A stretch of DNA of 44,121 nt from a virus (IMGVR_UViG_3300045049_000218:1-44121), one strand, 5' to 3'. Positions 2,305 through 44,109 are shown, numbered from the stretch's first letter. Numbers and translations are program-made. The notes: generated from the sequence alone by a model not told the origin.

Positions 2305-3138
2305 ATGGGAGGCGTGCAGCATTTCGTGTTCACACGCTTCAACCTGCGTGCATCGCCGGCGGCGCCAACCGATACCGCAATCAGCACGGCATGGCTGAAG
2401 CGCCGCTTTGAGCTCTTCGAGCGGTTTTGCCTGCCAACCATGCGGGCGCAGCAGCTGCAGGACTTCACCTGGCTCGTTCTGTTCGATACCGAGACGCCCA
2501 CGTGGGCGCGGACGATCATCGATCAGTACGCGAGCTGGGAGTGTTTCGTGCCGGTGTTTCTGCCGCCGGGATTCGACCATGGTGCGCGGCGGCTGATGCA
2601 ACGGTTCCTGAAGGACGGCACGCGCACGTTGGTCACGACGAGGCTGGACAGCGACGATGGGCTCGCTTCCGACTACGTGTCATCGGTGCGTGTGGTGGAG
2701 CACACGCGTGAGCCGCTTGTGCTGCAGTACCCCACCGGATTCGTGTGGCACGGCGGCCGCCTCTACCTCGATCGGCAAGAGCGCAATGCGTTCTGCACCC
2801 TCATCGAGCCGGTAAGGGCCAAGAGCGAGGTGTCGACGATCTTGCGAGGCTCGCACTCGGAGGTGGACCGCTTGGGCAGGCTGCTGAACATCTCGGCAGA
2901 GCCGGGTTGGCTACAGGTGATCCACGGGGGGAACATCGAGAACCACGTGCGCGGCCGCCGCTGCCGCCGCGAGATGCTGGGGACGCGGTTCGCGATCGAC
3001 GTGCCGGCGCGGAGCGAGAACGCGGGCGCGATCATGCTTGACCGAGCCACCATGCTGGCTCGCTGGGGTGCGATCTGGGGCGCGCGTAAGGTGTGCAGGA
3101 AGCTAGGCTTCCAAGCGGCCAACTGGACGCGTCAATGA
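2305..3138 (+). CDS. Putative glycosyltransferase (rhamnosyltransferase-like), lysogenic conversion candidate
   Basis: 277 aa. The N terminus (HFVFTRFNL at 6-14, then LFERFCLPTMRAQ and FTWLVLFDTETP around 37-65) matches the pattern of the putative rhamnosyltransferase family (PF11316) and other GT-A-like enzymes. TTRLDSDDG at 111-119 supplies a DxD-type metal/nucleotide-sugar motif. It would act in the cytoplasm on a sugar acceptor, most plausibly a host surface glycan. GGGGAGAGG precedes the ATG. The gene lies between the left operator and the repressor, opposite in direction to cI, with the two stops overlapping by 7 bp; this is where lambda carries rexAB, an accessory slot expressed in lysogens. 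Change of the surface receptor and superinfection exclusion is the inferred role. Confidence 0.7.
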   Translation: MGGVQHFVFTRFNLRASPAAPTDTAISTAWLKRRFELFERFCLPTMRAQQLQDFTWLVLFDTETPTWARTIIDQYASWECFVPVFLPPGFDHGARRLMQRFLKDGTRTLVTTRLDSDDGLASDYVSSVRVVEHTREPLVLQYPTGFVWHGGRLYLDRQERNAFCTLIEPVRAKSEVSTILRGSHSEVDRLGRLLNISAEPGWLQVIHGGNIENHVRGRRCRREMLGTRFAIDVPARSENAGAIMLDRATMLARWGAIWGARKVCRKLGFQAANWTRQ

Positions 3139-3599
3139 CGTTCGCGCGTGGGGCCGGCCGGCCGAGGTTCGGGAGGCTGCTCGGGTAGAAACTGATCGAG
3201 TGCCACGCTATAGCGCGCGATCTGCTCGCCGGTCAACACCGCGCGGGCCCGTTCCAGCTTGTACTTGATGTAGTCGAGGGCCTCGCGGCGTTCCTCCGCC
3301 GGAAGGGTGCGTAAGGCCTCGTCCAGGATGAGTGCCTTGGTGGCCACCAGGTTGCCGCGCTTTGGGCCGCGGCCTGAGAGGAGCCATTCGACATTGACAT
3401 TGCCCCACTTGGCGATGGCGATGGCCACGTCGAGCTCAGGCATTCCGAGGCCGAGCAGCCACTTTCGCGCCGCGTTGGGTGTGACCTTGAAGACGGCCGC
3501 GAGGGCGCTTTGCCGCCCACGTTCGACCGGCAATTCCATATCCGAGCACACCTCATTGAGGCGTTCGGCGAATCCCGTCTTTTCCGCGGACTGTTCCAT
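3132..3599 (-). CDS. CI-like phage repressor, 155 aa, without peptidase domain
   Basis: The N-terminal half carries a helix-turn-helix region (about residues 8-75: FAERLNEVCSDMELPVERGR, then ALAAVFKVTPNAARKWLLGL) followed by the segment NVEWLLSGRGPKRG common in phage HTH repressors. The C-terminal half is a helical region (EERREALDYIKYKLERARAV) and ends in a Pro-rich tail. No S24/LexA Ser-Lys peptidase motif is present, so RecA-driven self-cleavage is not expected. The ATG at 3599 abuts an operator-like repeat (3602-3613) and has no clear ribosome site, compatible with a leaderless lysogen transcript; an ATG at 3617 is the alternative. It is divergent from cro and convergent with the glycosyltransferase. 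Confidence 0.8.
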   Translation of the reverse strand: MEQSAEKTGFAERLNEVCSDMELPVERGRQSALAAVFKVTPNAARKWLLGLGMPELDVAIAIAKWGNVNVEWLLSGRGPKRGNLVATKALILDEALRTLPAEERREALDYIKYKLERARAVLTGEQIARYSVALDQFLPEQPPEPRPAGPTRERH

Positions 3600-3601
3600 G
3601 C

Positions 3602-3660
3602 ACCAAAGGTTAGGCATTTGATGCCGAACAATCGGTGCTTGACTGTTTCTAACTATCGGT
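3602..3660. promoter_or_regulatory. Right operator region (OR-like), three 12-bp sites
   Basis: Three related 12-mers lie between cI and cro: ACCAAAGGTTAG (3602-3613, plus strand), ACCGATTGTTCG (complement of 3625-3636) and ACCGATAGTTAG (complement of 3649-3660). The last two have the same 24-bp period seen in the left block. The first almost touches the cI start and the last overlaps the PR-like promoter, the geometry needed for a CI/Cro switch. Confidence 0.7.
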
Positions 3661-3668
3661 GCGAACAT
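3639..3668 (+). promoter_or_regulatory. PR-like rightward early promoter
   Basis: TTGACT at 3639-3644 is the mirror of the PL -35 box. The best -10 is the weak GAACAT at 3663-3668 after 18 bp. The start point would fall at about 3675, exactly at the cro ATG, so the cro transcript may be leaderless. The -35 call is firm because it is shared with PL; the -10 call is weak. Confidence 0.5.
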
Positions 3669-5082: not shown

Positions 5083-5387
5083 GCGGCACGCGCCGTGAGG
5101 CTTATGGCCTGGAGCTGGAGCGCGATCCGCTCGAGCGGCTGAGCGCCGATGACCAGGCGACGCAGCGCGAGGAGGAATTCCTGGCCGACGCGCTGATCGA
5201 GCAGCAGCGCCAGGCGCGAGCCGAGGCCGCGCTGGCCAAGCCCGGCGTGTGCAGCAACTGCGGCCAGGCCTGCCTGCCGGCCGCGGTGTACTGCGACGCC
5301 GACTGTCGTGATGACCATGAGAAGCGCCGGGCCGTGAAGGCCAGAACGAGCGCCGGGCGTTGGGGGACAGGTGGCATCGACGCTTGA
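5079..5387 (+). CDS. Zinc-ribbon-like protein, 102 aa
   Basis: An N-terminal acidic helix (about residues 10-55, rich in Glu/Gln/Ala) is followed by CSNCGQACLPAAVYCDADCR (58-77). The cysteines C58, C61, C72 and C76 form a C4 site like DUF2116-type zinc ribbons. The tail is basic (HEKRRAVKAR). The ATG overlaps the previous stop, and the 3' end overlaps the primase start by 17 bp, so it is translationally coupled to replication. A DNA-binding accessory of the replication protein is plausible; no function is known. Confidence 0.7.
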   Translation: MSGTRREAYGLELERDPLERLSADDQATQREEEFLADALIEQQRQARAEAALAKPGVCSNCGQACLPAAVYCDADCRDDHEKRRAVKARTSAGRWGTGGIDA

Positions 5388-7839
5388 CGACACACCCCAA
5401 GCGCCGAGCGAGCGCGAGCAGCTCGTGCAGCGCCTCGCCGCGAACATGCCCGAGGCCATGCGCGGGCTGCCGCAATGGCTGCTCTGGCGGTTCGAGCAGC
5501 ACGAGGGCGAGAAGAAGCCGCGCAAGGTGCCGTATTACGCCGCCGGGCATCGCCGCACCGGCGGTCAGGGCAGCGACGAGGATCGCGGGCACCTCGTCAG
5601 CTTCGATCGAGCGCTGCACGTGCTTGCGCGCGCGTCACGCTTCGACGGCATCGGTTTCGCGTTCCTGCCTGGCGATGGGCTGATCGGCATCGACGTTGAT
5701 GGCGCGATCGACCCGGAATCCGGCGAGATCTCCGAGCTGTGCAGTGAGGTGATCCGGCGCGCGGCCAGCTACACCGAGCTCAGCCCGAGCGGCAGAGGCG
5801 TGCACGTGATCGTGGCCGGCCAGACGCGCAGCAACAAGGACAACGTCATCGGCCTGGAGGTCTTCTGCGGCCGTCAGTTCTTCACCTGCTCCGGCAAGCA
5901 CTGGCCAGGCAGCCCAGCCACAGTTGAGCCGGTGAGTGCCGAGGCGCTGGCCTGGATGCACGCGGCTGTCGATGAAGCGAAGCAGCGCAAGCGGGCGCCG
6001 GCGGCTGAGCCGATTGTGGCGCCGATGGCGACGGCCGGTCAGACCGGTGATTGGGTGCGCCAGGCGCTCCAGGCTGTGCCTGCCGACTGCGACTACAACC
6101 AGTGGATCGGCATCGGCATGGCGATCAAGAGCGCGCTCGGCGATGGCGCGCTCGGCGTCTGGGACGAGTGGTCGCAGCGCGCGGCAGGCAAATACCCTGG
6201 CACGGAGCGTTTGCAGGCGCATTGGAAGAGCTTCTCGGGCAATGACCCGGACGGCGCGACCACGATCTTCAAGATCGCGCGGCGAGGCGGCGCATGGAAG
6301 CCGCCGATCGAGTACCTGGCCGTGCACGGGGCCGATCGCGAGCGCGAGGCCGCGCTGCGCAAGCTGCAGGGCAAGCCGCGCCTGGTGCTCGCGCACTCGG
6401 CGCCGGAACCTGCTGACGATGGCCAACCGACTCCTCCCCCTCCCTCCGATGAGGAAGTCGACGCGGCGCGCGGCGGCCGCGCGCACGACAAGGGGGGAGG
6501 GGGCCATGGGCTGGAGCGGCTGCAGGAGCACTACGCGCTGATCTATGGCACCGACACGGTGTGGGACGGCGAGAAGCGTCGCGTGATGAAGGTGGCCAAC
6601 CTGCGGCTGCTCTTCGGCAACGACACGGTCAAGATGTGGCTGCGCGGCGATGCGCGCCGCGTGGTGCTGCCGGAACACCTGGTGTTCGAGCCGGGCAAGA
6701 AACTGCCGCCGGACCATGTGAACCTCTTCGACGGCTTCGCGGTTGAGCCGATCAAATGCACGAAGGACGACGTTGCGCCGATGCTGGAGCTGCTCTGGCA
6801 CCTGTGCAGCGCCAGCGCGGATACCACCGACGGCGTGAAAGGCGTATTCAGGTGGGTGCTGCGCTGGCTCGCGCTGCCGTTGCAGAAGCCCGGCGCCAAG
6901 CTGCGTTCGGCGCTCGTCTTCCACGGCCCGCAGGGCACGGGCAAGAACCTGTTCTTTGACGGCGTGGCGTCGATCTATGGCAAGTACGGCTGCATGGTCG
7001 GCCAGACGGAGCTCGAAGACAAGTTCAACGACTGGCTCAGCGCGAAGCTGATGATTATCGGCAATGAGGTGGTGACACGGCAGGAGCTCTACCACCACAA
7101 GAACAAGCTGAAATGGATCATCACCGAGCCGCGCATCCCGATCCGGCCGATGCAGCAGAGCGTGCGCTGGGAGAGCAACCACGCACAGGTGGTGTTTCTG
7201 TCGAACGAGCAGCAGCCGCTGGCGCTCGAGCAGGACGATCGGCGCTACCTGGTGGTCTACACGCCGGCCGCGCGCGACGATGACCTCTACAAGCGCGTGG
7301 CGGCCTTTCTGGACGCAGATGGCGCGGCGAAGTTCATGCACTACCTGCTGAACTACCCGCTGGGCGACTTCGACGAGCACACCAAGCCGGTGATGACCGA
7401 GGCCAAGCTGGCGCTGATCGACCTGAGCCTCAAGCCGGCCGAGCGGTTCATCAACGACTGGCTAGGCGGCTTTCTGTCTCTACCCGTGCACCCGTGCGAG
7501 TCCGGCCAGCTGTACCGCGTGTTCACGCGCTGGTGCAGCCAGTGCGGTGAGCGCTATCCGCCGAACCAGGCGGCGTTCACCAATACCGCGAAACGGCACG
7601 TGCAGGAGCGTCTGGAGCGCGACGAGGAAGGCCAGCGCATGGCGCCGCGCCTTGAGCATCGCGCGGTGACGTATGACCTTGCCGACGGCAAGCGCCGGTC
7701 GATCCGCGTGTGGATTCCGCGCGAGTGCGCGCCGCCCGAAGGCGTGAAGCTTGGCGACTGGGCTGCCGCGTGCGTCGACCAGTTCGAGCGCCACGTCAAC
7801 GCGTTCGGCCGCACGGCGATGCCGGAGGAAACCTCATGA
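5371..7839 (+). CDS. PrimPol-helicase replication protein (primase/D5-type), 822 aa
   Basis: Three domains are visible. Residues 30-180 are an archaeo-eukaryotic-type primase-polymerase with the metal pair in GLIGIDVDG (D108, D110), the segment YTELSPSGRGVHVIV and EVFCGRQFFTCSG. Residues 225-300 match a PriCT_2-like linker (DYNQWIGIGMAIKSALGDGA). Residues 400-700 are an SF3/D5-like ATPase (DUF5906 type) with Walker A GPQGTGKN (519-526), Walker B-like LMIIGNE (560-566) and the sensor-like VFLSNEQQPLALEQDDRRYL. A Pro/Glu-rich, low-complexity linker (345-380) separates primase and helicase. It should prime and unwind DNA at the phage origin in the cytoplasm. The GTG start follows GGGGGA. Confidence 0.85.
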   Translation: MASTLDDTPQAPSEREQLVQRLAANMPEAMRGLPQWLLWRFEQHEGEKKPRKVPYYAAGHRRTGGQGSDEDRGHLVSFDRALHVLARASRFDGIGFAFLPGDGLIGIDVDGAIDPESGEISELCSEVIRRAASYTELSPSGRGVHVIVAGQTRSNKDNVIGLEVFCGRQFFTCSGKHWPGSPATVEPVSAEALAWMHAAVDEAKQRKRAPAAEPIVAPMATAGQTGDWVRQALQAVPADCDYNQWIGIGMAIKSALGDGALGVWDEWSQRAAGKYPGTERLQAHWKSFSGNDPDGATTIFKIARRGGAWKPPIEYLAVHGADREREAALRKLQGKPRLVLAHSAPEPADDGQPTPPPPSDEEVDAARGGRAHDKGGGGHGLERLQEHYALIYGTDTVWDGEKRRVMKVANLRLLFGNDTVKMWLRGDARRVVLPEHLVFEPGKKLPPDHVNLFDGFAVEPIKCTKDDVAPMLELLWHLCSASADTTDGVKGVFRWVLRWLALPLQKPGAKLRSALVFHGPQGTGKNLFFDGVASIYGKYGCMVGQTELEDKFNDWLSAKLMIIGNEVVTRQELYHHKNKLKWIITEPRIPIRPMQQSVRWESNHAQVVFLSNEQQPLALEQDDRRYLVVYTPAARDDDLYKRVAAFLDADGAAKFMHYLLNYPLGDFDEHTKPVMTEAKLALIDLSLKPAERFINDWLGGFLSLPVHPCESGQLYRVFTRWCSQCGERYPPNQAAFTNTAKRHVQERLERDEEGQRMAPRLEHRAVTYDLADGKRRSIRVWIPRECAPPEGVKLGDWAAACVDQFERHVNAFGRTAMPEETS

Positions 7840-12082: not shown

Positions 12083-13123
12083 ATGGCCGAAAATTCTGCG
12101 ATCGAATGGTGCGACCACACCTTCAACCCCTGGGAAGGCTGCACTAAGGTTTCGCCCGGCTGCGACCACTGCTATGCTGAGGCCCGCAATGCGCGATTCG
12201 CCGGCGGCACGGCGAGCAACTGGGGACCTGGCGCACCCCGGCGCCGCACTAGTGAGGCTAACTGGAAGCTGCCGCTGAAGTGGAACGCGCTGGCCGCGGC
12301 CGAAGGCCGGCGCTACCGCGTGTTCTGCGCTTCGCTGGCCGACGTGTTCGACAACGAGGTGCAGCCCGAATGGCGCCGCGACCTGCTGCGACTGATCCTG
12401 AACACGCCGCATCTCGACTGGTTGCTGCTGACGAAGCGCATCGGCAACGCGGCCGCAATGCTTGAAGAAGCATCGCAGGCGATCGACGGAGTGGGCTGGC
12501 AGCGCCACCCGTGGTCGAACGTCTGGCTCGGCGCGACGGTGGTGAACCAGACGGAGGCCGACCGCGACATCCCGAAGCTGCTCGCGGTGCCCGCGCGCGT
12601 GCGCTTCCTGTCGATCGAGCCAATGCTGGGGCCCATCGACCTAACGGGCATCGGCCGCTACACGAACAGTTCGCAGAACATCGACGCTCTGCGGGGTATC
12701 GACACGCGGGGCGTGCTGGCCATGAGCGCAAACGAGGCCTCCAGCATGGTGTCGTCGTCACTCGGTGGCCCTCGTGTCCACTGGGTCATCGCCGGCGGCG
12801 AGAGCGGCCCGCACGCGCGGCCGATGCACCCGGACTGGGCCCGCTCGCTGCGCGACCAGTGCGCGGCCGCCGGCGTGCCGTTCCTGTTCAAGCAGCACGG
12901 GGAATGGGCGCCGGGCAGCGGCTTCGACATGAGGCCACGCGCGTGGATCGATCGCGCCGGCCGCTTGGTGACCGAGCAGTCAGGCGACGACTTCCCGAAG
13001 GGCGCCTCGGCCGCCGACGGCTGGGCTGCGATCCATCGCGCCGGCAAAGCCGCCGCCGGCCGCCTGCTCGACGGTATCGAGCACACCGCCTTTCCGAAAC
13101 CGTCTCACTTTTCCGGGAAATGA
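12083..13123 (+). CDS. DUF5131 (phage Gp37/Gp68 family) Cys-motif protein, 346 aa
   Basis: Family PF07505. The N terminus AIEWCDHTFNPWEGC is followed by TKVSPGCDHCYAEA, giving C20-x6-C27-x2-C30, a radical-SAM-like iron-sulphur cluster motif. Later family landmarks are SKRIGNAA-type DWLLLTKR, WLGATVVNQ, RFLSIEPMLGPID and HWVIAGGESGPHARP. The biochemical reaction is not established. The gene separates Mor from gpW/portal and is not a virion component, so it is a cargo gene in the head operon. Its stop codon lies inside the duplicated hairpin element (13095-13127). The protein end FSGK is encoded by that element. Confidence 0.85.
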   Translation: MAENSAIEWCDHTFNPWEGCTKVSPGCDHCYAEARNARFAGGTASNWGPGAPRRRTSEANWKLPLKWNALAAAEGRRYRVFCASLADVFDNEVQPEWRRDLLRLILNTPHLDWLLLTKRIGNAAAMLEEASQAIDGVGWQRHPWSNVWLGATVVNQTEADRDIPKLLAVPARVRFLSIEPMLGPIDLTGIGRYTNSSQNIDALRGIDTRGVLAMSANEASSMVSSSLGGPRVHWVIAGGESGPHARPMHPDWARSLRDQCAAAGVPFLFKQHGEWAPGSGFDMRPRAWIDRAGRLVTEQSGDDFPKGASAADGWAAIHRAGKAAAGRLLDGIEHTAFPKPSHFSGK

Positions 13124-19967: not shown

Positions 19968-19989
19968 GCGGTGCACACGTGTGCACCGC
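19968..19989. promoter_or_regulatory. Perfect 22-bp palindrome with CACGTG centre; parS-like or terminator
   Basis: The left half GCGGTGCACAC is exactly complementary to the right half GTGTGCACCGC; the centre reads ACACGTGT. Bacterial ParB sites also centre on CACGTG, and this phage encodes a ParB-like protein. Two one-sided variants occur at 11648 and 42286. It lies 6 bp after the Rz stop, so a terminator hairpin without U-tract is the alternative. Confidence 0.5.
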
Positions 19990-20027: not shown

Positions 20028-20050
20028 ACCCGCCGCCTACCGTGGCGTGC

Positions 20051-35636: not shown

Positions 35637-36809
35637 ATGAAACCGAGAAAAACGCCGTCGGGCAAATACGAGCTGCAGCTGCGCCACAAGGCGCTCCCGA
35701 AGGGGCGACGGTACTACACCTTCGACACCGAGGCCGAGGCGTTGGACTTCGTCGAGCGCTGGCGCCTGGTGAAGCTCACGGGGCAGCAGCTGCCGGCCGA
35801 GATGCTGCAGCCGGAGCCGGAGCGCCGCACCCTGGGCCTGGCCATCCGCGAGTGGGCCAACTCCGGCCTGGCCGCGCCTACCGAGCAGGTGTCGCTCGGC
35901 ATCCTGATGAGCGATGTGGGCGCCGTGCCGCTGGCCAGCCTGTCGTACAAGTGGGCCGAGCAGTTCGTGCGCGACTGCAAGGTCAAGCGCAACCTGGCGC
36001 CCAGCACCGTGCGCCAACGCGTGCACGCGCTCAGCCACGCGATCGATCACTTCCTGCGGCAGCACCCGGAGGTGACCACGATCGGCAACCCGCTCAAGCT
36101 GCTGCCCAAGGGCTACAGCACCTACTCGAAGGTGGACCGCGAGCTGGCCGAGGCCACCGGCGGCCGCGCCAAGGTCGACCGGGTGCGCGATCGCCGGCTG
36201 CACCCCGGTGAATACGAGGCCATCTGCAAGGCCCTGTCGGGCCACCAGGCGCCCGATCGGCAGCGGCCGCTGGGGCTGCAGCATGGCAACGCCATGCTCG
36301 CGCTGTTCCAGCTGATCCACTACACCGGCCTGCGCCTGAAAGAGGCGCTCACGCTCACGCGTGGCCAGGTCGACATGGAGCAGCGCATCATCCGCGCGCA
36401 GTCATCGAAGCTCTGGCGCGGCCGCGTGGGCTACCGCGACGTGCCGATCCGCAAAGAGCTGCACGCGGCGCTGAAGGCCTACCTGGATACCCGCGCGCTG
36501 CTGCCCGGGGCCTACCTCTTTCCGATGATGGACGAGGCCGAGGAATACAGGGAGGTGGGGCGGCGCGTGTCGTGGCTCTTTGCCACGGCGTTCCGCTACG
36601 CCGGCTGTGAGAACCTCACCGAGCACGATCTGCGGCACGAGGCCACATGCCAATGGTTCGAGCTGCGCGACGGCACCGGCAACTGGCTCTTCCGGCCGGA
36701 GGAGATCAACCGGATCATGGGCTGGACGCAAGGCAGCACGATGGCCCAGCGCTACGCCTCGTTCCGCGCTCAGGACTTCGTCGCGCGGCTGGCCGCGGCC
36801 GGCAGCTGA
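35637..36809 (+). CDS. int: Tyrosine recombinase integrase, 390 aa
   Basis: An N-terminal DNA-binding region (about 1-60), a core-binding domain (about 85-165) and a catalytic domain (about 190-380) are present. Catalytic residues: R233 in YTGLRLKEAL, probable K258, H330-x2-R333 in EHDLRHE, W363 in MGWTQ, and Y373 in AQRYASF. It would integrate and excise the genome at attP/attB. A -10-like CATAAT at 35600-35605 lies 32 bp upstream, overlapped by an AACCGTCA repeat that could allow autoregulation. It is transcribed rightward, opposite to the Xis-like gene, whose 3' end it overlaps by 40 bp. Confidence 0.92.
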   Translation: MKPRKTPSGKYELQLRHKALPKGRRYYTFDTEAEALDFVERWRLVKLTGQQLPAEMLQPEPERRTLGLAIREWANSGLAAPTEQVSLGILMSDVGAVPLASLSYKWAEQFVRDCKVKRNLAPSTVRQRVHALSHAIDHFLRQHPEVTTIGNPLKLLPKGYSTYSKVDRELAEATGGRAKVDRVRDRRLHPGEYEAICKALSGHQAPDRQRPLGLQHGNAMLALFQLIHYTGLRLKEALTLTRGQVDMEQRIIRAQSSKLWRGRVGYRDVPIRKELHAALKAYLDTRALLPGAYLFPMMDEAEEYREVGRRVSWLFATAFRYAGCENLTEHDLRHEATCQWFELRDGTGNWLFRPEEINRIMGWTQGSTMAQRYASFRAQDFVARLAAAGS

Positions 36810-37081
36810 GGGGGCGTTTGCCGGCGGCCGCGGCGCGGCTCGGGCAGCTTGGTCACGCCGGGCGGCAGCGGTGCCTTGCGGCCCATGGCCTCGATGGCGC
36901 GCTCGTTGAGCACCCGCATCAAGGCCTCGCGTGGGTAGCGCCACGAGCGGCCGAGCTTGATGCCCGGCAGGCGCCCCTCGCGCGTCTCGAGCTCCACCGT
37001 TTCCTCGCTGCACTCGAATGCACGCGCCACCTCTGCCACGGTGAGCAGGTCTAGGCCGGCGAGCTGCGCGATCACGTCCAT
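36770..37081 (-). CDS. Excisionase-like HTH protein, 103 aa
   Basis: Residues 12-58 (LLTVAEVARAFECSEETVEL then LPGIKLGRSWRYPREALMRV) are a winged/MerR-type HTH of the excisionase-like HTH_17 class. The C-terminal half is basic and Pro-rich. It ends the leftward early operon next to int, the expected place for an Xis that directs excision after induction. GGGAG precedes the ATG by 9 bp. Its last 40 bp overlap the int 3' end on the other strand. Confidence 0.75.
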   Translation of the reverse strand: MDVIAQLAGLDLLTVAEVARAFECSEETVELETREGRLPGIKLGRSWRYPREALMRVLNERAIEAMGRKAPLPPGVTKLPEPRRGRRQTPPQLPAAASRATKS

Positions 37082-38717: not shown

Positions 38718-38935
38718 CACACCCCTCCCTCATCGGCGGATGCCTTGGTGGCGGCTTTGCGAAGAACGCTGGCGTGAAGACGTTGCATGCGTTCAATTTC
38801 CTCGACGATCGCGTCAAGCTCCATGTCGGGCTCAATGCGGTGCTCGTTGCACGACCAGATGCCCTGGCGTCCCTTGGCGTTGACCCGGTATAGCGTATGC
38901 TGGGGCGCGGCCTTCTCGCAGCGGAAGCATTTCAT
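38717..38935 (-). CDS. Small Cys/His protein, 72 aa
   Basis: Starts MKCFRCEKAAPQHTLYRVN, with C3-x2-C6 and later SCNEHR (C29, H32), a likely single zinc site. The C-terminal half is an acidic helix (DMELDAIVEEIERMQRLHAS). The ATG overlaps the stop of the 270-aa gene (ATGA) and AAGGA lies upstream. Resembles small phage zinc proteins; no specific function. Confidence 0.7.
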   Translation of the reverse strand: MKCFRCEKAAPQHTLYRVNAKGRQGIWSCNEHRIEPDMELDAIVEEIERMQRLHASVLRKAATKASADEGGV

Positions 38936-39744
38936 TCCTTGTCCCCCTCGTCGGCCTGTGCCGGGTGAGTGGTGGAGAGGGCGTGAAGCGCTTCGATCAA
39001 TTCGTGGGGGAAGGCGTAGATCGGATGCAACTCGCTATCCTTCATGACTTCTGTGGAGCGCATCCCAGCGAGCTTGTACTCCCCGTTGCTGATGCGTGCG
39101 TAGCCGCAAAAGTACGGCCCCAGGTCCGTCAGTCCCTGCGCCACTGGCTGTGCTGCCGCAGGCTGAGGGGAGGCGAGAGCATCCATGATGCGCAGGACGA
39201 GCTTGCGAGTCGATGGCACAGAAAGGTAGACGGCCTGCTCGTGCTGAAGCCATTGCCGCGCGTCATCAACAGCCTTGTCGAAGCGCTCGTTGTCTTCCGC
39301 CTCTTCTGCCCCCTGCTGCGCCACGGGAGGGCGGGCTGCGAGCATGGCACCGTATACGGCGCGAGGGCCTACCCAATCATGACCATCGCCAGCATCAGAG
39401 CCGGCGGCTTCCATTTCCGGCGTCGGCTCAACCGGCACCAGCACGAGCCCATCGGCCGCCACCGGCTCGGCCTGCGGCTGGGCAGCGAGCACCCGAGCAA
39501 GAGCAGCGCGGTCTATCGGCCTGTTGGGCTCCTCGTTCAGCCACTTGCGCAGCTCGCGCACGTCATCCTCTGCCGGCTCGGCCTGCGGCTGGGCGGCGCG
39601 GATCGCTACGGCTGCTTTGGTCAGCAAGTCAGAAAGCTCTGCATCATGAAGAGCACCAAGCGAGCAACCATCCGCATGCAAAGCTGCGCGCTTCTCCAGC
39701 GCAGACGCCAGCGCCTCGGCCGTCTTGGTGGTGGTGTCGCTCAT
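38932..39744 (-). CDS. Hypothetical early protein, 270 aa, with internal AAQPQAEP duplication
   Basis: ATG at 39744 behind AGGAG (8 bp), overlapping the ParB-like gene's stop (ATGA). The N-terminal half has two similar segments, each ending AAQPQAEP (about residues 50-90), suggesting internal duplication or recombination hot spots. The middle GLVLVPVEPTPEMEAAGSDA is a common phage early-protein module seen near DUF551-like parts. The C-terminal part (YFCGYARISNGEYKLAGMRS, ELHPIYAFP) looks like a small fold. A mosaic protein of exchangeable modules; function unknown. Confidence 0.7.
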   Translation of the reverse strand: MSDTTTKTAEALASALEKRAALHADGCSLGALHDAELSDLLTKAAVAIRAAQPQAEPAEDDVRELRKWLNEEPNRPIDRAALARVLAAQPQAEPVAADGLVLVPVEPTPEMEAAGSDAGDGHDWVGPRAVYGAMLAARPPVAQQGAEEAEDNERFDKAVDDARQWLQHEQAVYLSVPSTRKLVLRIMDALASPQPAAAQPVAQGLTDLGPYFCGYARISNGEYKLAGMRSTEVMKDSELHPIYAFPHELIEALHALSTTHPAQADEGDKE

Positions 39745-41882
39745 GCCGCTTGCTCCTGTTGACCCTTCGGAAACGGCCAAGCACCGACAGGCGAGAGCTG
39801 CGGCGTAGGCGGCTTGGTCGTCGCGTCCTTCACTTCCTTCTTGCCCCCAGCGGCCGCCGGCGTCGGCTTCGCCTTGCTCTTTGCAGGCGCCTTGGGCGTT
39901 TTGTCCTTCACTTCCTTGGACCCCTTCCCCCCTTTGGGCGCGCCGGCGGCGGCTTTCGCTTTGCCTTGTTGCTCCTGTGCGAGGGCGTGGGCCAGGGCCT
40001 GCTCGGGTGTTTGGGGCGCCGATTGCGCGCCCTGCGCGGCAGCGGAAATGGAAGGGGTAGAAGCGCCTGCGCCGGCGATGTCGAACTCGGCCAGCGTGCG
40101 GCCCTCAGCCAGGCGCGCCTTGAGCCACGCGGGCTGCAGGCCGCGGCCGCTCCAGGTGTCGCCGGTGGCCGGATCGCGGTAGCGCATCACCACCTTGCCC
40201 GGGCCCGACTTGCCGGCCTCGGGCTTGGCCTTGGCGCCCTTGCCGAGCGGGGCCTTGAGGGCGTTGATCTCGTCGCGGATGGCGGCGTCGATCTCCGCGG
40301 CCACTTCCTTGCGCAGCGCCGGCAGATCGAAGCCGACTTCCTTTGCCAGCGCGTCGGCGGTCTTGGGCGAGCCGGGCTGAATGCTCCACTGATCGAAGAT
40401 CACGGCGATCAGCACGGCCTGCACCAGCTGCTCGATGGGCGCGTCCTTCAGCCAGTTCGTGCTGAAGCTCGGTTCGTGCTTGCCGGTGACAAGGTTGCCG
40501 ATCTCGCCGCCGTCGATTCCATCCGCGCGCATGAGCATGTCGGCTAGCGCCCGCATCCAGTTGGGCGACTCGTCCGGCAGGCCGAAGGCGCCATCGTCGG
40601 CCAGGTGCTTCGCGAAGGCGCGCGGCAGCCGGCTTTCGATCATGTCGCGGATGCGCCTGTCGCGCTGCCGCTTGATGTCGTCGGGCGTGAGCAGCTTCGT
40701 CGGTTGGCCGGGTGCCTGCTTCACGCCGGGCTTGAATAGGCCTTTTTCCTTGAGCGCGGCCTTCACGTCGTCCAGCTTCGCCACCTTGAGCGTGGTGTCG
40801 CTGTGCTCGGGCTTGAGCAGCACGAGGCCCTTGAAGTCGTCGCCGAGCAGCGTGGTGAGCCGCTGCTTGGTGCCGGTGAGCTCCTCGGCGGCCTGGTCGA
40901 GCCGCACGTGACCGGTCTGCGCCAGGCTGTATTCGCCGTAGGGCATCACCTTCTTGGCCTCGGCACCCACCAGCACGGTGACGCCGCTGGCCTTGGCCTG
41001 CTTGACCTCGCGGTCGGCGTGGGCCTTGGTCTTGGCCTCGAAGCAGTTGGGGTCGGTGCAGGTGTCGGCGCTCTTCACGTCCTCGAAGAGGTCGGGGTTG
41101 GCGCCGGTGCGCTTGGGGCAGGCCGGGCAGGCGCCGGCCTTGGGCAGGAGCTTGGCGTCCTTGATGTCGAACACCGCGCGGCCCAGGCTGAGCATGTACT
41201 TCTTCTGCAGGTGCTCGGCGGCCTGGCGCGCGCTGAAGGGCTCGCCGCCCCAGCCTTGCTGGCATTCCTTGCAGGCCTGCTCGTGCTGGTACTGCGGCAG
41301 CGCGGCGATCTTCAGCGCCACGCTGGCCGAGAGGCGGTCGCTGTAGAGCTCTTCACGCACGAAGGGCGCGAGCTTGAGCAGCGCGAGCCGGTTGTAGATG
41401 TAGCGCACGCTCACGTCGAAGCGGCTGGCCAGCTCCTCAGCCGTGAAGCCCTGTGTGCCGTTGGGCTTGCGCAGCATTTGCTCGTAGCCCTCGGCTTCTT
41501 CCAGCGGGTGCAGGTTGCGCCGCTTGATGTTCTCGGCCATCTGGACCTCGAGCATGGTGAGGTCGTCGAGGTCCTTCACCAGCGCCGGGATCGTGGGCTG
41601 CTCGGCCTTCTGCGACGCACGCCAGCGGCACTCGCCGGCCACCAGCTCGTATTGCGGGCCGCCACGCACGGCGCCGGCGAGCGGCCGCACCACGATCGGC
41701 TGGAACACGCGGACCTTCTTGATGCTCTCGGCGAGGCTGGCGATGTAGCTCTCGTCGAAGCGCTTGCGCGGGTTGGTCTTGCTGGGCTTGATGAGCGAGC
41801 AGGGGATGTGCACGGCGCCGTCGATCGCGGCGCGCGCGATCTCGGCAGCAGGGGCAGCCACGGCTTCGGCGGCTTCGGTCAT
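39741..41882 (-). CDS. ParB-like protein with Cys cluster and H-NS-like C-terminal domain, 713 aa
   Basis: Residues 22-135 are a ParB/Srx-type domain: HIPCSLIKPSKTNPRKRFDE, LVAGECRWRAS (box like the ParB GERRxRA) and AENIKRRNLHPLEEAEGY. Residues 140-200 hold the ParB HTH (FTAEELASRFDVSVRYIYNR). A Cys cluster (C252, C255, C275, C280) follows, in ACPACPKRTG and DTCTDPNCF. Residues 566-602 (VMRYRDPATGDTWSGRGLQP) match the H-NS DNA-binding domain, but the RGR minor-groove motif reads RGL. A Lys/Ala/Pro tail ends the protein. No ParA is present. Likely a DNA-bridging or transcription-control protein rather than a partition partner. GAGGTG precedes the ATG. Confidence 0.85.
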   Translation of the reverse strand: MTEAAEAVAAPAAEIARAAIDGAVHIPCSLIKPSKTNPRKRFDESYIASLAESIKKVRVFQPIVVRPLAGAVRGGPQYELVAGECRWRASQKAEQPTIPALVKDLDDLTMLEVQMAENIKRRNLHPLEEAEGYEQMLRKPNGTQGFTAEELASRFDVSVRYIYNRLALLKLAPFVREELYSDRLSASVALKIAALPQYQHEQACKECQQGWGGEPFSARQAAEHLQKKYMLSLGRAVFDIKDAKLLPKAGACPACPKRTGANPDLFEDVKSADTCTDPNCFEAKTKAHADREVKQAKASGVTVLVGAEAKKVMPYGEYSLAQTGHVRLDQAAEELTGTKQRLTTLLGDDFKGLVLLKPEHSDTTLKVAKLDDVKAALKEKGLFKPGVKQAPGQPTKLLTPDDIKRQRDRRIRDMIESRLPRAFAKHLADDGAFGLPDESPNWMRALADMLMRADGIDGGEIGNLVTGKHEPSFSTNWLKDAPIEQLVQAVLIAVIFDQWSIQPGSPKTADALAKEVGFDLPALRKEVAAEIDAAIRDEINALKAPLGKGAKAKPEAGKSGPGKVVMRYRDPATGDTWSGRGLQPAWLKARLAEGRTLAEFDIAGAGASTPSISAAAQGAQSAPQTPEQALAHALAQEQQGKAKAAAGAPKGGKGSKEVKDKTPKAPAKSKAKPTPAAAGGKKEVKDATTKPPTPQLSPVGAWPFPKGQQEQAA

Positions 41883-42226
41883 TGCGGCACCTCGTCGGCG
41901 AAGTACACAGCGTTGGGCCGCTCATAGATCCGCATGCCATGCTCGGAGGAGACGGTCCAGTCCTCGACGATCGGCGCGTTATTGCAGGCCTCGGTGCGCA
42001 CCGCGTAGTGCACCTGGCAGCCGGCGACGGTGACGTTGCCGATTTCCAAGTACCAGTTGGTGCTGCGGCCGTTGGGCTTGACGCCCAGCGTTTCCTCGGC
42101 GGTGCGCACGCCTTTCACGGTGCCGAAGACGCCGCGGTAGTAGCGGCCATCAGGTGCGAGAAAGAACTGGTCCACGGTGACCAGGGCCTTCTGCCCGATT
42201 TCGATGTTGAGCGGTGGCGTTTGCAT
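41879..42226 (-). CDS. Hypothetical early protein, 115 aa
   Basis: Beta-rich small protein: IEIGQKALVTVDQFFLAPDG, YYRGVFGTVKGV, NWYLEIGNVTVAGCQVHYAV and EHGMRIYERPNAVYFADEV. The strand pattern suggests an SH3-like or OB-like barrel. AAAGG precedes the ATG and the stop overlaps the ParB-like ATG (ATGA), so both are made together. A DNA- or RNA-binding partner is possible; no family recognised. Confidence 0.7.
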   Translation of the reverse strand: MQTPPLNIEIGQKALVTVDQFFLAPDGRYYRGVFGTVKGVRTAEETLGVKPNGRSTNWYLEIGNVTVAGCQVHYAVRTEACNNAPIVEDWTVSSEHGMRIYERPNAVYFADEVPQ

Positions 42227-42779: not shown

Positions 42780-43337
42780 TCACTCGGTGCGCCAGATGCG
42801 CGAGGCCTCAGCATCGATCTGCCGCATCACGAACTTGCGCCCGTGCGCCTTGCCCCAGTTCTGCGCGTTCGAGATCAGGCGCTTGGCGGCGGCCGTGGGC
42901 ATCGGCACGCTGTCGCCCTTTTCCATGCGCGCCCACACCGCGTGGTACTCGGCGCCGCGTGGCTTGGGCGCCGGTACCGGCACATCCTTGGCGATGTTCT
43001 CCAGCAGCTTGTCCGCCGGCGGCAACTGCACGGCCTTCGCCTTGGGCATGCCTTCGGCCGATGCCTGTCCCTTGCTGGCCAGCCACGCCTTGAAGCCGGC
43101 GGGGGGGGGCATGTTGGGGCCGGCCTTCCACACGCGCGCGCCGTCATCGCCGGAGTCGGTCTGCAGGTAGCCCGCGAGCACCGATTGGCGCAGGCTGCTG
43201 TCGATGGTGGTGGCGTTCTCGCTGAACTTCTGCGCGATGTCGGTGCGGCCGAGCTCCTCGTCGGGGTTGAGGCCGAAGAACTCGATCACGCGCGCGGGCA
43301 GGCTGTCGGGCCGCGGCTTGTAGGTGGGCATGTTCAT
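42780..43337 (-). CDS. HTH-like early protein, 185 aa
   Basis: The first 65 residues (SLPARVIEFFGLNPDEELGR, TDIAQKFSENATTIDSSLRQ, SVLAGYLQTD) have a winged-helix pattern with a recognition helix around 38-52. A Pro/Lys-rich linker (about 75-125) and a C-terminal helical region (AAAKRLISNAQNWGKAHGRK) follow. GGAGA precedes the ATG. It likely binds DNA and could regulate early genes or replication; no exact family recognised. Overlaps the HD hydrolase stop by 4 bp. Confidence 0.7.
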   Translation of the reverse strand: MNMPTYKPRPDSLPARVIEFFGLNPDEELGRTDIAQKFSENATTIDSSLRQSVLAGYLQTDSGDDGARVWKAGPNMPPPAGFKAWLASKGQASAEGMPKAKAVQLPPADKLLENIAKDVPVPAPKPRGAEYHAVWARMEKGDSVPMPTAAAKRLISNAQNWGKAHGRKFVMRQIDAEASRIWRTE

Positions 43338-43996
43338 GCGCGTTGCTCTCCAAGGGGGGAAGACGGCTTGCCGCCGTAGGCCGCGACAAGCGCCTGGCGC
43401 TCGTATTCGAGCTCGTGGTACTTGTCGGTGAAGGCCTGGCGCCAGTCGCGCCAGGTGAAGCCGCAGCGGCTGCCCATGAGGTCAGCCCAGGGCACGGGAT
43501 CGATGCCCTGCAGGCAGCCCCAGGCCTCGCCGGGGGGCAGCAGCTGGGCGCGCTCAGTGGCCAGCGCCATCAGGTCGGCGCGGCGCACGGCGTCGCGGTG
43601 CACGGTGCGTGCGGTGCGCAGCGCAAAGGCCGAGTGCACGGCGCCGCTCGCGCGGCGCTCGAGCTCGTGCCAGCCGGTGCCGATCACGCGCTTGGCGATG
43701 GTGGACGCATCGCCCACGTAGGCCTCGTGCGCGTCGTGCATGAGCGCGTAGAGGCGGCCGTGCACGTCCAGGCGCATTTCGCGCTCGGCGATCTCGCAGA
43801 CCAGCAGGCTGTGCTCGGCCACGCTGTAGGGCCGGCAGGTGTGGCCGGTGAAGCGGTTGATCAGCGAGAGGGAATGCGCGATGTCGGGCAGCGTGATGCT
43901 GCGGGGACGCGGCGCGGCCAGGTCGAACTCCTGGCCGCTGATGGTGAGAATCCAGTCTTGGCTCATGCGGTGTGCGGGGTGAAGATCAGTCGTCAT
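43334..43996 (-). CDS. HD-domain phosphohydrolase (YfbR-like), 220 aa
   Basis: HD-superfamily pattern: NRFTGHTCRPYSVAEHSLLV (H62), ALMHDAHEAYVGD (H87-D88 with D96), then a long helical second half. This matches phage HD hydrolases related to the YfbR 5'-deoxynucleotidase group, which act on nucleotides in the cytoplasm and could adjust pools or salvage host nucleotides. Start at 43996 overlaps the end of the 114-aa gene across the circle; ATG at 43966 (MSQDWILTIS) is a shorter alternative. It overlaps the HTH-like gene at its 3' end. Confidence 0.8.
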   Translation of the reverse strand: MTTDLHPAHRMSQDWILTISGQEFDLAAPRPRSITLPDIAHSLSLINRFTGHTCRPYSVAEHSLLVCEIAEREMRLDVHGRLYALMHDAHEAYVGDASTIAKRVIGTGWHELERRASGAVHSAFALRTARTVHRDAVRRADLMALATERAQLLPPGEAWGCLQGIDPVPWADLMGSRCGFTWRDWRQAFTDKYHELEYERQALVAAYGGKPSSPLGEQRA

Positions 43997-44109
43997 CCCG
44001 CTCGCCCGAGGCCGCGCGCTTGCGGTCGAGGCCCGCGGGCGCGGTGGTGGCGCGCTGCAGCGGCGCGTGCTGCTGCATGTGGCGTAGGGGCGCGTCGGGC
44101 CAGCGCCGG
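43984..44109. repeat. Terminal direct repeat, right copy
   Basis: Identical to bases 1-126. From 44110 on the two copies differ: the right end continues with a short palindromic GGCC-rich sequence instead of the sequence at 127 onward. The last 12 bases are therefore likely an assembly artefact rather than phage sequence. Confidence 0.9.

Follow-up and report, generated by a model that had tools for sequence, protein, structure and literature searches.

An orphan ParB-like protein of a phage, fused at its C-terminal side to an H-NS-type DNA-binding domain, was found to belong to a large phage ParB family in which H-NS is one among several exchangeable tails. The Leu that stands at the end of the minor-groove motif of this domain is recurrent among the fused domains and no quirk of one sequence. 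Both observations go beyond the earlier note on this DNA. The reading we prefer, whose chances we put slightly short of even, is that of a CTP-gated orphan clamp with an exchangeable DNA-contact tail, a KorB/Noc-like regulator or organiser of phage DNA that does not serve partition.

The fusion gene encodes 713 aa (39741..41882, minus strand; start at 41882, stop at 39741) within the window, i.e. the whole stretch of 44,121 nucleotides of viral DNA that was analysed (IMGVR_UViG_3300045049_000218). The earlier note had reported this ORF without its strand. The codon-position G+C of the ORF (0.68/0.47/0.90) matches that of other window genes, and Pfam matches and relatives further identify it. 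A search for the same fusion in other phages, which had been proposed as a check, turned up 16 further contigs with ParB-H-NS; these contigs and the continuous codon pattern rule out a sequencing or assembly error that joined two genes. Two more fusions (L096 and L098) were found independently through a DNA pattern. Both neighbours overlap the ParB gene by ATGA, the stop of the upstream gene lying at 41879-41881 (41879..42226, minus; phrog_22562, E 1.5e-21) and the start of the downstream gene at 39744 (38932..39744, minus; phrog_5913, E 1.7e-7). The arrangement looks as in a coupled operon; both neighbours are of unassigned function.

The ends of the window have 126 exact bases in common (1-126 = 43984-44109), while its last 12 bases differ; from this overlap the genome appears circular as assembled, and it is probably complete at ~44.0 kb. 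Terminase, portal, capsid, tape-measure and tail genes are present in this virus record, which by inference would be that of a siphophage-type temperate phage. A leftward gene set runs across the circular junction, headed by a CI-type repressor gene (3132..3668, minus; phrog_4, E 3e-11) and continuing through a deoxyribonucleoside 5'-monophosphate phosphatase-like (HD) gene (43334..43996, minus; phrog_318, E 7e-50) and the ParB gene to an excisionase-like HTH gene (36770..37081, minus; PF12728, E 1.1e-11, phrog_1840), where it adjoins a tyrosine integrase gene (35637..36809, plus; PF00589, E 1.2e-12). A putative rhamnosyl transferase gene of opposite strand (2305-3138, plus; PF11316, E 1e-24) separates the repressor gene from the rest of the leftward operon, and a DUF5131 protein (12083-13123, plus; E 3e-90) is encoded between the terminase and portal genes. 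The hosts of relatives are Variovorax (phage VarioGold), Acidovorax (phage Aval) and Comamonas (a plasmid with phage genes), and the candidate host of this phage is probably a Burkholderiales-type bacterium.

The ParB-type N terminus and HTH region described earlier are borne out by Pfam matches above the curated cut-offs, to the N-terminal domain with the CTPase fold at residues 25-120 (41523..41810, minus; PF02195, E 9.3e-26) and to the helix-turn-helix at residues 123-208 (41259..41516, minus; PF17762, E 1.1e-10), the presumed reader of a loading site. From sequence alone, residues 6-199 match structures of Spo0J, ParB and Noc. Box II reads GECRWRA (residues 83-89) and box III ENIKRRNLHPLEEA (residues 117-130). 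In one alignment of 71 full-length family members, R39, R66, E79, G83, R86, E117, N118, R121, E129 and A130 are invariant, and by alignment of ParB boxes II and III and published ParB work these residues are predicted to form the nucleotide pocket. Residue 85 of box II is Cys in the window protein, where most family members have Arg. Downstream, the four-Cys cluster noted before (C252-x2-C255...C275-x4-C280; 41043..41129, minus) is kept in 71/71 aligned members and is probably zinc-binding. The same pattern occurs in a PRTRC ParB and in an Acidisarcina plasmid ParB; having it in common with PRTRC ParB makes the core look like a PRTRC-like branch, and the fusion scores below the cut-offs of the PRTRC, Noc and RepB models. 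The canonical C-terminal ParB dimerisation domain has no Pfam match in the 713-aa protein, and another mode of dimerisation is possible.

Structure prediction with AlphaFold2 (71 sequences, monomer; mean pLDDT 81.5, pTM 0.63) gave a confident core together with a folded H-NS domain (pLDDT ~73-93 by block). A fold search with the model returned ParB, Noc (E 5e-12) and KorB (E 3e-9). The middle region, residues 300-546 (40245..40985, minus), consists of an alpha/beta part followed by a helical domain, with pLDDT mostly 80-97; modelled separately, it found nothing in the PDB below E 0.38 by fold. Disorder flanks the H-NS domain at 549-562 and 605-624, and the Lys/Ala/Pro-rich tail (residues 605-713; 39744..40070, minus) is mostly disordered, with low pLDDT over most of its length.

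The profile searches suggested for the ParB and PF00816 regions both returned significant matches. The H-NS C-terminal domain spans residues 567-602 (40077..40184, minus; Histone_HNS, PF00816, E 1.7e-13, 50.5 bits against a curated cut-off of 25.6), and residues 564-588 match by sequence an H-NS family structure, PDB 2L92 (Bv3F). Within its core TWSGRGLQPAW, the counterpart of the Q/RGR minor-groove motif is R580-G581-L582 (40137..40145, minus), in agreement with the earlier remark on Leu; the window protein thus has RGL instead of the Q/RGR that marks H-NS. Its N-terminal oligomerisation domain is also absent from the protein, with the ParB core in that place, so that the ParB part would have to supply any H-NS-style bridging.

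Among the 17 fused domains, the motif is RGL in 10, RGR in 4, RGK in 2 and KGK in 1. In 65 chromosomal H-NS domains (28 from the best-scoring loci of a phylum-wide sample plus 37 others, with a few perhaps entered twice), Arg or Lys takes the third position apart from 3 Pro and 1 Ser, and Leu never does (0/65). The excess of RGL gives a Fisher p of ~1e-8, to be read with the knowledge that neither set consists of independent sequences and that the chromosomal set is skewed to high scorers. A DNA pattern for RGL matched 8 viral stretches: 5 are ParB fusions, 1 encodes another protein (L095), and in 2 no H-NS ORF was recognised. The protein in L095 (4225-5268, minus) is a 347-aa phage protein in which an RGL H-NS domain and a WPFP peptide, the tail elements of the ParB fusions, occur on a different protein. 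At the counterpart of this position in Ler, Arg90, the changes R90G and R90Q abolish DNA binding and R90K reduces it strongly, while H-NS R114G loses much of its affinity and keeps some (PMC3219716). From these mutants, a fair prediction by analogy is that RGL would bind more weakly and with less AT selectivity than H-NS. AT-rich H-NS targets were sought on the phage and rejected: its G+C content is 68%, A/T runs of at least 7 bases number only two, and there are only mild dips (to 50-57% G+C at 35.3-35.7 kb, 1.9-2.3 kb and 38.3-38.8 kb).

A search with the window protein alone gave no viral relative and one weak genome relative. The family was therefore gathered with an alignment of the window, VarioGold, Aval and Comamonas plasmid proteins as query, giving 80 loci in viral contigs. 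The members examined have in common the ParB clamp core followed by the Cys4 cluster, and diverge beyond about residue 545. Histone_HNS was found in 17 (window included) and FtsK_gamma in 6 of the 78 C-terminal halves scanned; as the loci were chosen for their likeness to the window protein, 17/79 with H-NS is no measure of prevalence. SH3-like segments occur in 28/79 by our own iterated profile, with Pfam support only singly, and there are also Lys/Ala-rich tails, alone or combined with other modules. H-NS is found together with SH3, whichever comes first, or with FtsK-gamma, and WPFP is combined with H-NS, SH3 or FtsK-gamma. FtsK-gamma ends the phage ParB-like proteins in L035, L040, L046, L048, L057 and L068, following H-NS in L035. 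On a tree of the core (residues 1-440), the distribution of H-NS requires 10 changes, at least 7 of them forced by starred branches, where the tree is a quick one with SH-aLRT support only and the counts do not distinguish gain from loss. These repeated changes indicate that the tail modules have been exchanged. The window protein falls within a supported group of five H-NS members.

The extreme tail holds a further recurring element, W702-P-F-P705 (39768..39779, minus). A W-P-F/Y-P motif (one W-D-F-P included) is present in the C-terminal half of 31/84 proteins, against 0.14 expected by shuffling, mostly near the protein end or directly before an SH3-like segment, and within the gene neighbourhoods it is nearly restricted to ParB ORFs. 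Our literature search on WPFP returned unrelated papers only. It is a reasonable guess that WPFP is a docking peptide for a common partner. Elsewhere, AWPFPTG lies in a linker of a 559-aa phage protein (L130:747-2426, minus) that by eye is YqaJ-type exonuclease-like.

ParB-type clamps slide on DNA during chromosome segregation. For the fusion, the parts can be recognised, while loading, NTP use, sliding and regulation are carried over from KorB, Noc and ParB. The HTH would recognise a loading site, or a small number of them, in the phage DNA; CTP, or else a different NTP, would then close the N-terminal gate, leaving the dimer trapped on DNA and able to slide. The H-NS domain on its flexible tail might add weak contacts in the minor groove, by which clamps are locally held, slowed or bridged, a task for which the weaker and less AT-selective RGL contact would be better suited than for silencing. 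Clamps would in this way coat the lysogeny and early control region locally with protein, regulating transcription and organising phage DNA, much as KorB and Noc work on their own replicons, without ParA. In other phages, SH3-like, FtsK-gamma or Lys/Ala-rich tails take the same position. This reading draws on the domain and fold matches, the invariant pocket and Cys residues, the missing ParA, the place of the gene in the CI-to-integrase operon here and in the three named relatives, and the repeated gain or loss of H-NS next to other DNA-contact modules. KorB itself slides as a clamp in a CTP-dependent manner and represses promoters at distances of up to 1.5 kb (PMC11790492). Of the interpretation offered before, the fusion, the missing ParA and the altered motif stand, while compaction of phage DNA and silencing of host genes are conjectural.

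Several points speak against the clamp. In a survey of ParB-fold proteins, 17 of 28 tested bound no NTP (PMC12704722), and Cys85 in box II, where most members have Arg, may tell against nucleotide gating here; with Leu in its motif, the H-NS domain may bind DNA only feebly. Inverted repeats number 27 in the window against ~13 expected, and no parS-like family was singled out among the palindromes. One 22-base palindrome, GCGGTGCACACGTGTGCACCGC, is intergenic at 19968-19989, directly ahead of the capsid/protease ORF, whose start is at 20042. Finally, when a ParB relative of a plasmid leading region (ParB2) was deleted, SOS induction and transfer of the plasmid were unchanged (PMC8406263).

That last result also weighs on the main rival of the clamp regulator, an establishment or replication/recombination factor, which we hold to be unlikely. 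Here the clamp would accompany ssDNA-processing proteins on incoming or replicating phage DNA, with its tails (WPFP, SH3, FtsK-gamma, H-NS) recruiting phage or host replication partners. Gene neighbourhoods favour such a role: in VarioGold an SSB-like gene and a dNMP kinase gene directly precede the ParB gene, distant E. coli plasmid relatives lie in the leading region between ssb and psiB/psiA, and a ParB relative on an Acidisarcina plasmid comes after an ArdC-like gene. It would also fit the occurrence of WPFP in the exonuclease-like protein of L130 (by eye) and in the RGL H-NS protein of L095. The ParB gene of the window, however, is part of the CI/integrase operon and not a neighbour of the primase gene (5371-7839).

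A counter-silencer like VirB, competing with host H-NS on phage DNA under the guidance of its own H-NS domain, seems improbable. VirB, which is ParB-like and depends on CTP, relieves silencing by H-NS (PMC10770331, PMC10653881), and a fused domain devoid of the H-NS oligomerisation part would suit such competition; yet the base composition of the phage leaves little for H-NS to silence, and RGL should bind AT-rich sites poorly. We also give little credence to the possibility that the RGL domain no longer binds DNA at all and is a protein-contact module or neutral passenger on a clamp driven by its core. The H-NS domain is absent from 62/79 family members, and the position whose mutation abolishes or lowers binding in Ler and H-NS is altered in 10/17 fused domains; against this, the loop Trp, both Gly, the Arg and the Pro are retained, H-NS gains recur, and the alternative tails are also of DNA-contact types or Lys-rich.

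The absence of ParA, taken earlier as an argument against classic partition, holds in this record and well beyond it. A ParA-type ATPase (PF13614) is absent from 50 whole records, some of them fragments, with 14/14 control genomes positive, and the ParA-binding motif (L/F/I)G(K/R)G(L/F/I) does not occur in the N-terminal 60 aa of any of 84 proteins; partition with an own ParA is rejected. An integrase is encoded in 36/46 records, making partition unneeded for maintenance in most. A ParB core and HTH would also befit a partition protein that borrows a host ParA, but the lack of both ParA gene and ParA-binding motif and the presence of an integrase make this highly improbable. The evidence suggests that ParB-H-NS acts in the regulation or organisation of phage DNA and not in partition.

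Regarding known systems, the closest are ParBs of Variovorax phage VarioGold (VG_p35), Acidovorax phage Aval (gp06c) and the Comamonas odontotermitis plasmid NZ_CP083453, with core identities of 39-43%. They resemble the window protein in the Cys4 cluster, the place between CI and integrase and the lack of ParA, and differ by SH3-like tails in place of H-NS. PRTRC ParB (TIGR03734) matches residues 36-295 (E 2e-38), Cys cluster included, but at 132.4 bits against a cut-off of 278.6; the PRTRC context differs, and the PRTRC protein examined has no H-NS match. YfhA/ParB2 of F/IncI leading regions, lying between ssb and psiB and compared here through an IncI relative, likewise has ParB_N and HTH with no adjacent ParA, but its identity of ~31% extends only over residues 24-215, short of the Cys cluster, and it lacks an H-NS domain. 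An orphan ParB-like gene flanked by ssb and psiB/psiA in the leading region also appears among the abundant matches to E. coli plasmids (L091:4896-6854). KorB (RK2) and Noc are alike in fold and presumed way of working, and differ in their C-termini; the KorB domain PF08535 has no match in the window protein (E up to 1), which scores 130.9 bits on the Noc model TIGR04285 against a cut-off of 315. With the H-NS family the protein has PF00816 in common, without the N-terminal oligomerisation domain and with RGL for Q/RGR.

Orphan ParB-fold proteins on mobile elements are known. To our knowledge, CTP clamps and xenogeneic silencers have so far met mainly in VirB versus H-NS, and a ParB-H-NS family would link the two fields. 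Fusions of orphan ParB folds on mobile elements to other domains are described in the ParB-CTPase fold survey (PNAS 2025, PMC12704722), where H-NS, FtsK-gamma and SH3 tails do not appear in the main-text passages and H-NS is mentioned there once, in the title of a VirB reference; its supplement, outside our scope, may list the fusion. Our literature search found no paper describing an H-NS-ParB fusion. One conserved clamp core with repeatedly swapped DNA-contact tails provides a set of natural experiments in which core and tail are separately testable, and with the RGL variant one can ask directly whether an H-NS domain is able to tether a clamp weakly. Perhaps, though we regard this broader proposal as doubtful, temperate phages have a family of CTP-gated sliding clamps onto which chromatin-type modules are interchangeably mounted (H-NS with its minor-groove motif detuned, FtsK-gamma, SH3, tails like histone H1). 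Every such clamp would lay down its own kind of local coat on phage DNA, by which lysogeny or genome processing is controlled, and the W-P-F-P docking peptide would be held in common. Apart from the phage proteins, bacterial proteins of 405-437 aa (L153, L154, L155, L156) carry a SWIM-like CxC..CxH pattern, recognised by eye, and a C-terminal H-NS domain.
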